32,123 bases of DNA. It comes from Candidatus Peribacteria bacterium. Its GTDB lineage: Bacteria; Patescibacteriota; Gracilibacteria; Absconditabacterales; Absconditicoccaceae. Position 1 is the stretch's first letter, and each line of letters starts with the position of its first letter. The translations under genes and the position numbers were made by a program. Of this stretch, positions 25,865 through 27,803 are shown piece by piece. The notes beneath the pieces were generated by a model. It did not search any database, was not told the DNA's origin, and saw only the letters and a list, made by a program, of their open reading frames with translations. The stretch spans positions 1 through 32,123 of the forward strand of contig JAISMG010000027.1 of NCBI GenBank assembly GCA_031276875.1. The letters are read 5' to 3'.

Positions 25865-26275
25865 AGCCGGGAAAGAAGAGTAAAAAAGCTGTAGCGTTTT
25901 GTGTGTTGGAGAGTGTAGTGATTTAGAAAAAATTTGCAAGAGAGGAAATGAGGAAAAATGCTTAAGGTTCAAGCAAAATCTACTAAAAAGCTCATCAAAT
26001 AAGCTAAAAACAGGGATGACAACGGCACACTACCTATGCACAACAAAACATTTGCATTCCATATCCAAAAACATATACCTTTCAGCGAACAGCAACTACT
26101 TTACGTGAAATCCTATCCCATACACCAAACAGCAATGCAGAACGTGAACAGCGAATAATTTTTATTTCTGCATTTCGTTAGAGTAATGTCCTTTCCAAAT
26201 GGAACCATCTCAATAAATCTCGATATATATATCACTATTTTATAACGTTTTCGACACTTCGTAATACGTTTCATT

Positions 26276-26307
26276 CCTTTTTGTCAATGCAAAAAGGGAT
26301 TTTTTTA
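26276..26307 (+). terminator. Terminator-like hairpin upstream of the FISUMP gene
   Basis: CCTTTTTG / CAAAAAGG stem followed by a T-run. Confidence 0.5.
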
Positions 26308-26338
26308 TGAAAAGTTTTTTATCTTACTAGCAAATAAT

Positions 26339-27409
26339 ATGATGAAAAAAACAACACTAATACGAACGTTAAGCGTTCTAGCCATAGGAGGAATAGTGCT
26401 ATGGTGAGCCAAAAGTTTAGCAGGCGGGGAGATGCATATTCAGCATAAAGCGGTGTGTAGAGCCATACTTCCTGCCAATGCTGTTTGGAATACAGCTCTT
26501 AATAAGACAGGAGATGTAGCACTTGTAGACCAAACAGAGACGAGTCATAATGTTTGGGAACCAGACGCAGGAGTAGCTACTTTTAGTGGTGATTATCGAG
26601 ATGGAGGATGTACGTTTAGTTGTGCAAGTAATTACAATTGGAATGGAAGTAGTTGTGAAGCAGCAAATATATGTGATATGAGTGTAACATGTAATGAGCC
26701 AGACATTACAATAGGAAGTTTTACGATAAAAGCATGTAATGTAGGTGCTTCAACGGCAGGAACCGGCGCATCTTCTTACGGATGTTACTTCCAGCGAGGA
26801 AATAACTATGGATTTGCAAACTCAGGAAGTATTGCTACAAGTAATAGTTTAGTACCTAATGCTTCTAGTTATGGCCCTTTACCATTGTCTTATTATAGTG
26901 GGTCTAACTTTATTACAGAACCTGGAGTAAGCAGTAGTAGTAAGTATGACTATTGGATAGGTGCTCAGAATAACAATTTGCGATGAGGAAGTGGGGATAT
27001 ACAAGCTAATGGACGAGATAGTGGAAATGCCAGAACAGAGAGACAATGACCGTGTCCAGATGGTTATCATGTACCAAGTGCCGGAGAATGGAGTGGGGTA
27101 GTGATGACACGATGGAATGCAGTAGGAAGTGGAGGAGCATCTATAAATACAAGTAGTTGATTGCCTTACTTTAATGATTCAAGCAAAGCTACTCAATTCA
27201 GGAACGACTTCCGTCTACCGTATGCAGGGTACCGCAATTACGATTCGTCCGCGTCGGTCAATTATCAGGGCAGCTACGGCCGCTACTGGTCATCCAGTCC
27301 GCGTTCTACCTACGCTCGTAACCTGAGCTTGTATTCGTCTTACGTGTACGCGTACGACAACTACAATCGCGCGTACGGCTTCTCTCTGCGTTGTTTCCAG
27401 AATTCCTAG
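26339..27409 (+). CDS. Secreted FISUMP (Fibrobacter succinogenes major paralogous domain)-type protein with variable C-terminus
   Basis: Signal peptide then ICDMSVTCNEPDITIGSFTIKACNVGAS...[G]PCPDGYHVPSAGEWSGVV...FRLPYAGYRNYDSSASVNYQGSYGRYWSSSPRSTYARNLSLYSSYVYAYDNYNRAYGFSLRCFQNS*; four TGA (26405, 26984, 27047, 27158). Confidence 0.85.
27222..27405 (+). other. Putative DGR variable region (VR)
   Basis: Abrupt change to GC-rich codons with many NAY/TAC/AGC/GAC positions at the CLec-type C-terminus, ending in an invariant-looking GGCTTCTCTCTGCGTTGTTTCCAG. Confidence 0.6.
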
Positions 27410-27438
27410 CTTGACCCTTTGGCTGTTCGCTTTCCCAT

Positions 27439-27456
27439 TCGCTTTCATTAAAGCGA
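27439..27456 (+). other. Hairpin immediately downstream of the putative VR
   Basis: TCGCTTT CATT AAAGCGA: 7 bp (8 with a G-U) with 4-nt loop, no following T-run. Confidence 0.7.
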
Positions 27457-27501
27457 GCAGAGCGAGCGTTCCGCTATCGTCATTCTGAGCCCGTCCCACG
27501 T

Positions 27502-27585
27502 GTCATTCTGAGGAGCGAACGTAGTGAGTGAGGAAGAATCCAGACATCTAACACACACTGGATTCTTCGCTCCGCTCAGAATGAC
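27502..27585. repeat. Palindromic dispersed repeat (family 1)
   Basis: GTCATTCTGAGGAGCGAACG...GAAGAATCCAG ... CTGGATTCTTCGCTCCGCTCAGAATGAC; flanking half-sites at 27479 and 27598. Confidence 0.9.
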
Positions 27586-27607
27586 TGACCATCACGTGTC
27601 ATTCTGA

Positions 27608-27625
27608 CCCCGCAGTCCTGCGGGG
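27608..27625. repeat. Perfect GC-rich hairpin
   Basis: CCCCGCAG TC CTGCGGGG. Confidence 0.8.
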
Positions 27626-27803
27626 GAAGGCGGGATTCGATTATATAAGTTTCAATTATACGTTTTCACTTGCAAATGCTCGGCAAATCCATAAAGTACA
27701 ACTAACCAACAAAGACAAAAGCCAAGCCCCCGTCCTTTAAGCACATGATGTATGAGGCGGTCAGCTTTCTTTCTCTTTGCTTTATCTTCTTATTTTTCTT
27801 ACT

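Follow-up and report, generated by a model that had tools for sequence, protein, structure and literature searches.

A probable remote DGR variable region in a secreted FISUMP protein of a code-25 Candidatus Peribacteria genome

Introduction

The question raised by this locus is whether the GC-rich 3' end of a gene for a secreted protein is the variable region (VR) of a diversity-generating retroelement (DGR) whose reverse transcriptase (RT) and template repeat (TR) are encoded elsewhere in the genome. The locus lies in a stretch of 32,123 nucleotides (hereafter the window), contig JAISMG010000027.1 of the Candidatus Peribacteria bacterium assembly GCA_031276875.1. The assembly, in which the window is contig C9, comprises 1.23 Mb in 38 contigs and is 68% complete. 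A sequence-only reading had proposed a C-terminal VR served by a remote RT, together with a hairpin downstream of the gene.

The target gene and its product

The genome reads with code 25 (TGA=Gly) of the Gracilibacteria/Absconditabacteria type. Under this code the target gene is a single open reading frame, in which TGA encodes glycine at residues 22, 215, 236 and 273; translation with table 11 is broken at these four codons. The following features were defined.

26342..27409, + strand: predicted DGR target gene for a secreted 355-aa FISUMP (Fib_succ_major) protein
27230..27376, + strand: predicted variable region (VR), bounded by the first and last variable NNY codons (the Y in AGYR and the Y in AYGFSLRC)
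27377..27409, + strand: candidate IMH, the conserved non-variable 3' end GGCTTCTCTCTGCGTTGTTTCCAGAATTCCTAG, with AAT, as in VRs, at the codon that is CAC/CAT in TRs
27439..27456, + strand: candidate DGR target hairpin, imperfect, tcgcttt-CATT-aaagcga, with a 7-bp stem and a 4-nt loop

The N-terminus of the protein is signal-peptide-like and is common to paralogs on contigs C28, C22 and C19. Residues 233-351 matched the Pfam model Fib_succ_major above its cut-off (E 3.7e-10), a domain listed among those of DGR targets (PMC4159848); the match to the NCBIfam FISUMP model remained below its cut-off. A PDB sequence search with the protein gave no match, and its AlphaFold model (pLDDT 32.5) was too poor for use. 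The C-terminal peptide quoted in the sequence-only reading was found to be exact, and the switch to a GC-rich C-terminus described there is real: G+C amounts to 0.543 in 27215-27400, against 0.410 in the remaining gene and 0.366 in the window, the rich stretch covering approximately the final 180 bases of the gene.

In the window, rpsB is preceded by the DGR target gene together with a holA-like gene (26000-27800). Among the six same-genus genomes that are well readable at that place, none carries a FISUMP gene before rpsB; the position is mostly taken by the L10 and L7/L12 genes (rplJ-rplL) and otherwise by an unrelated gene. Gene order at rpsB is not conserved across the genus.

Variation follows the adenines of related templates

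Twelve FISUMP matches were obtained in the genome, and at least nine scattered target genes were counted. Further VR copies of the window family were detected in the assembly on seven contigs (C20, C29, C21, C15, C31, C28 and C2). The copy on C15 (L005, C15:40787-40994) belongs to a target pseudogene, being truncated and frameshifted by a 2-nt deletion, with the N-terminus of the gene missing.

The TR of G020, a genome of another genus in the same family, can be aligned with the window family; it served as yardstick for the A columns and was not used to infer anything. Pairwise diversity among the seven intact window-family VRs was 0.464 at the G020-TR A columns versus 0.203 elsewhere, a large contrast for which p=6e-9 is a guide rather than an exact value, since the columns are not strictly independent (codons, shared descent). 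The same contrast was obtained with a TR from the own genome as yardstick (TR1, described below; p=1.6e-8). When only first codon positions were considered, diversity was 0.593 at the G020-TR A columns and 0.154 elsewhere. VR diversity concentrates where related TRs carry A, mostly at codon positions 1 and 2. The share of first positions exceeds that of third positions in the VR, whereas the reverse applies upstream.

The window gene and its nearest paralog, C29, are identical at 0.956 of the upstream positions and 0.906 of the VR non-A columns, but at 0.571 of the TR-A columns; likewise, C31 and C2 are 94% identical upstream and 49% at the A columns. The window and C20 show 0.732 identity upstream and 0.937 at VR non-A columns, and the C28 gene resembles the window gene upstream while its VR non-A positions are nearer to those of C2 and C31. 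Across 21 pairs, upstream and VR identity did not correlate. This pattern is accounted for if VRs are overwritten locally from templates that they share, but not by ordinary divergence. The window VR differs from the paralog majority at 10 of 130 non-A columns and is therefore not a fresh copy of one template; changes may have accumulated in it after it was last overwritten, or it may have had a slightly different template.

The 3' end following the VR was compared between templates and targets. The codon after ...RCF(Q/K) or RCLK is CAY in three TRs (own contig C13, G020 and L085), and AAY or GAY (RAY) in the VRs of those three systems and of the window family, where AAT, AAC, GAC or GAT occur at this codon, AAT in the window itself. 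All seven intact window-family copies have 3' ends of the IMH type and not of the IMH* type. Since the window and its intact paralogs all carry the VR form of the codon, the missing template is not among them. The CAY/RAY difference looks like the IMH/IMH* difference known in other DGRs (PMC5006420). This one-base mark, CAY in TRs versus AAY/GAY in VRs, was seen in three systems (L009, L012, L038 and L085) and offers a possible means to separate templates from targets in metagenomes.

A DGR cassette on another contig

In agreement with the sequence-only reading, neither an RT nor a TR was found within the window. Two RT genes are present in the genome, on C13 and C22. On C13, a TR-like repeat (TR1) and an avd gene are followed by the RT gene. 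The Avd protein matched Pfam bAvd over the cut-off (E 5e-13), and its best NCBIfam match was DivGenRetAVD with 51 bits, against a cut-off of 80; a search of the genome for a second Avd revealed one copy only. The C13 RT matched Pfam RVT_1 and displays the motifs LPIGNLTSQ and YVDD. Its best PDB sequence match was 8ub7 (E 1.8e-29), which we take to be the Bordetella phage DGR RT, and its relatives sit in DGR cassettes. On its motifs, best PDB match and cassette-borne relatives, the C13 RT is assigned to the DGR type. C13 also bears a recA-like gene and other chromosomal genes. Directly 3' of the RT (L012 2633-3688), a large secreted protein is encoded in which nearly perfect PTEEE(K)TDSAI repeats precede leucine-rich ones.

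TR1 reads AGNRNRESGVLNNQGSNANYWASTPNGSNAFNLNFNSSIVNPQNTNNRSNGFSVRCF. Its cleaner counterpart is the VR of the FISUMP gene on C19, where 11 of 40 A positions and 3 of 110 non-A positions are changed (p=3e-5), 107 of 110 non-A positions thus being in agreement; for the VR on C10, the counts are 14/40 and 11/110 (p=8e-4). By this comparison the C19 and C10 genes, both on contigs other than that of the cassette, are identified as TR1 targets, and the A-specific changes indicate that in this genome a DGR acts, or acted, in trans upon FISUMP genes. The C19 gene has its N-terminal part in common with the window gene. A genome with neither a TR nor a DGR-type RT had been named as the finding that would speak against the proposed VR; both are present on C13. 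The RT, Avd and TR found there, together with the seven further VR copies, whose differences from the window VR fall mainly at template-A positions, support what had been proposed earlier, a VR that depends on a DGR RT encoded elsewhere in the genome.

The second RT, on C22 (L011 1270-2769), was rejected as a DGR RT. It is of the LPQGAPSSP type, is missing the DGR motif and resembles retron RTs (best NCBIfam match retron_St85; PADLOC RT-Protease_XI and similar). An uncharacterised 405-aa gene lies upstream. The C22 RT possibly belongs to a retron-like defence system in this code-25 genome.

A second template for the window family

The genome search suggested earlier for a near-identical template beside an RT succeeded in part: a TR with an adjacent RT was found on C13, but TR1 serves other targets and the TR of the window family is missing. 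TR1 differs from the window VR at 48 of 110 non-A positions, and the differences are not enriched at A (16/40, p=0.71). This mismatch with the window family means that a second template is needed. From the VRs, a template with the peptide AGNRN...VNNQGSNGNYWSSSPN..NARNLNLNSSNVNAN.NNNRANGFSLRCFQH was reconstructed, to which TR1 is 71-74% identical; being circular as evidence, the reconstruction served as a search query only. No cognate second TR was found in the 68%-complete assembly, around the C13 RT or in 49 family genomes. Of 49 pattern matches in genome_contigs, most were likewise due to chance. Searches of IMG/VR gave no relative at the protein level, and three matches to the VR core pattern that were rejected as chance hits in other reading contexts. 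It is plausible that the second TR lies in the missing third of the assembly, because near-identical repeats break assemblies and several VR copies are located at contig ends.

The downstream hairpin and intergenic repeat

The hairpin pointed out by the sequence-only reading does exist, with a 7-bp stem and a 4-nt loop, and starts 29 bp past the stop codon, slightly nearer than the approximately 35 bp given there. When the 120 nt downstream were shuffled by mononucleotide, 10 of 300 shuffles gave a stem of equal or greater length. Hairpins of phage DGRs have a GC-rich stem of 7-10 bp and a GRNA loop, and lie 4-34 bp from the VR (PMC3240598). The stem found here is 3/7 GC with a CATT loop, and neither its sequence nor its position is common to the other VR copies: different hairpins, with 3-nt loops, follow C29 and C21, the one at C15 resembles a terminator, and none of at least 6 bp was found at C31, C2 or C19. 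As a DGR element, the stem is present but lacks the published loop consensus and conservation among copies. A terminator or an intergenic repeat could just as well include this stem; it is compatible with a DGR and, as weak evidence, adds little. An intergenic repeat built on TCATTCTGA, with a long inverted repeat (GAGGAGCGAACG...GGAAGAATCCAG / CTGGATTCTTCGCTCCGCTCAGAATGAC), occupies 27481-27608, and the TCATTCTGA motif also occurs 3' of several other VR genes (C20, C28 and C22).

Discussion

The A-directed pattern of variation, the family of targets and the RT, Avd and TR cassette in the same genome lead us to regard 27230-27376 as very probably the VR of a cellular DGR, and the gene as its remote (trans) target in a code-25 genome. 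According to the model, the DGR RT, together with Avd, would copy a template RNA with AAC/AAT codons into cDNA and insert random bases opposite template A. This cDNA would then overwrite 27230-27376, beginning at the IMH at the 3' end, and new residues would result at approximately 20 positions of the secreted FISUMP domain. By analogy with known DGR target families, this domain probably binds ligands or partner-cell surfaces. The C13 RT would act on the window family via a second TR in the missing part of the assembly, and the DGR may still be active today.

It could be asked whether a retroelement is needed at all, as FISUMP genes are multicopy in this genome (12 matches), surface proteins often vary, and an ordinary family of paralogs might become diverse at an exposed loop through recombination or under positive selection. 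Such processes give no account of variation that falls at the A columns of an independent TR (p=6e-9, as a guide), of first-position diversity that exceeds third-position diversity in the VR and is exceeded by it upstream, or of the presence in the genome of a DGR whose cognate targets belong to the same protein family, which makes this explanation very improbable. Even less credit can be given to TR1 as donor of the window VR. It belongs to the same genome, encodes the same domain and reaches 71-74% identity to the inferred family template, but the 48 non-A differences out of 110 and the unenriched A positions (16/40) contradict a donor relationship, and TR1 instead fits C19 at 107/110 non-A positions.

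A fossil target deserves closer attention. Here the template would since have been lost or changed, and the region would now be subject to ordinary mutation, as might be read from the failure to find a second TR in the assembly, around the RT or in the 49 family genomes, from the diverged non-A third positions of the family VRs (mean identity 0.718), from the frameshifted C15 copy and from the divergence of TR1 from the window family. On the other hand, identity among the window, C20 and C29 VRs amounts to 0.87-0.94 at non-A columns, yet approximately 40% of the A columns differ, which argues that overwriting was recent relative to mutation. Moreover, 32% of the genome is missing, and several VR copies stand at contig ends, where TRs would also break the assembly. 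A fossil is thus considered rather unlikely, and a DGR supplied by a second template is preferred.

For this DGR, we tentatively advance a wider proposal, which is conceivable although the odds are somewhat against it: one RT/Avd pair would act in trans with two or more divergent templates and so keep at least nine unlinked surface-protein genes hypervariable, and repertoires would evolve by template-family switching, with divergence of the remaining gene taking its own course, as C28 may exemplify. The host genome is reduced and probably that of an episymbiont, besides using code 25, and for a lineage presumed to live on other cells the findings point to a hypervariable set of surface proteins. 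RT-anchored metagenome surveys miss remote targets (PMC8144416); here, the RT-linked contig would show none of the at least nine targets. The TR of a relative as yardstick, and a drop in paralog identity confined to template-A columns, allow remote targets to be recognised even when their template is missing.

Comparison with known systems

The closest counterpart is the DGR of G020, where TR, Avd and RT lie together on contig C4 and the VRs within 5 kb. From this TR to its VRs, 22/46 and 19/46 A positions are changed versus 2/134 and 1/134 non-A positions (p=1.6e-13 for 22/46 vs 2/134). Its TR peptide, AGNRNYSTADLKNQGSNGNYWSSSPNSAGSNNARNLNLNSSNVNANNNNNRANGLSVRC, is very close to the inferred template of the window family, and both systems share FISUMP targets, code 25 and the IMH/IMH* difference at the same codon. 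They differ in that the G020 targets lie close to their cassette, with 132-133 of 134 non-A positions agreeing with the TR, whereas for the window, a remote target, the TR is missing. The C13 DGR resembles the window system in genome, target protein family and A-directed change, but 44% of the non-A positions differ between its template and the window VR. Targets of the form YWSSSP...RAYGFSVRC beside a DGR-type RT were also found in Candidatus Gracilibacteria CG2_30_37_12 (L075) and in the uncultured bacterium LJ_bin-4100 (L085 and L098), with A-directed TR to VR change in the latter (p=2e-11); in both, unlike in the window, targets are cassette-linked and the template is different.

Within the genus, none of seven genomes gave a DGR RT match, whereas FISUMP genes are present in six of the seven, and the distribution of DGRs in the genus is patchy. 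Among more distant systems, Thiohalocapsa PB-PSB1 has unlinked targets assigned to a TR by non-A matching, some of them without a matching TR; its remote, trans-acted targets are comparable to the window target, while phylum and target architecture differ (PMC10907252). The DGR of Bordetella phage BPP-1 follows the same logic of TR/VR, IMH, Avd and RT, but has a GC-rich stem with a GRNA loop after the VR, in contrast to the 3/7 GC stem and CATT loop of the window hairpin (PMC3240598). DGRs with multiple and remote targets are already known, as are DGRs in CPR genomes (PMC8144416, PMC10907252, PMC3521204). The window system is interpreted as a DGR of known type with a large repertoire of remote targets.
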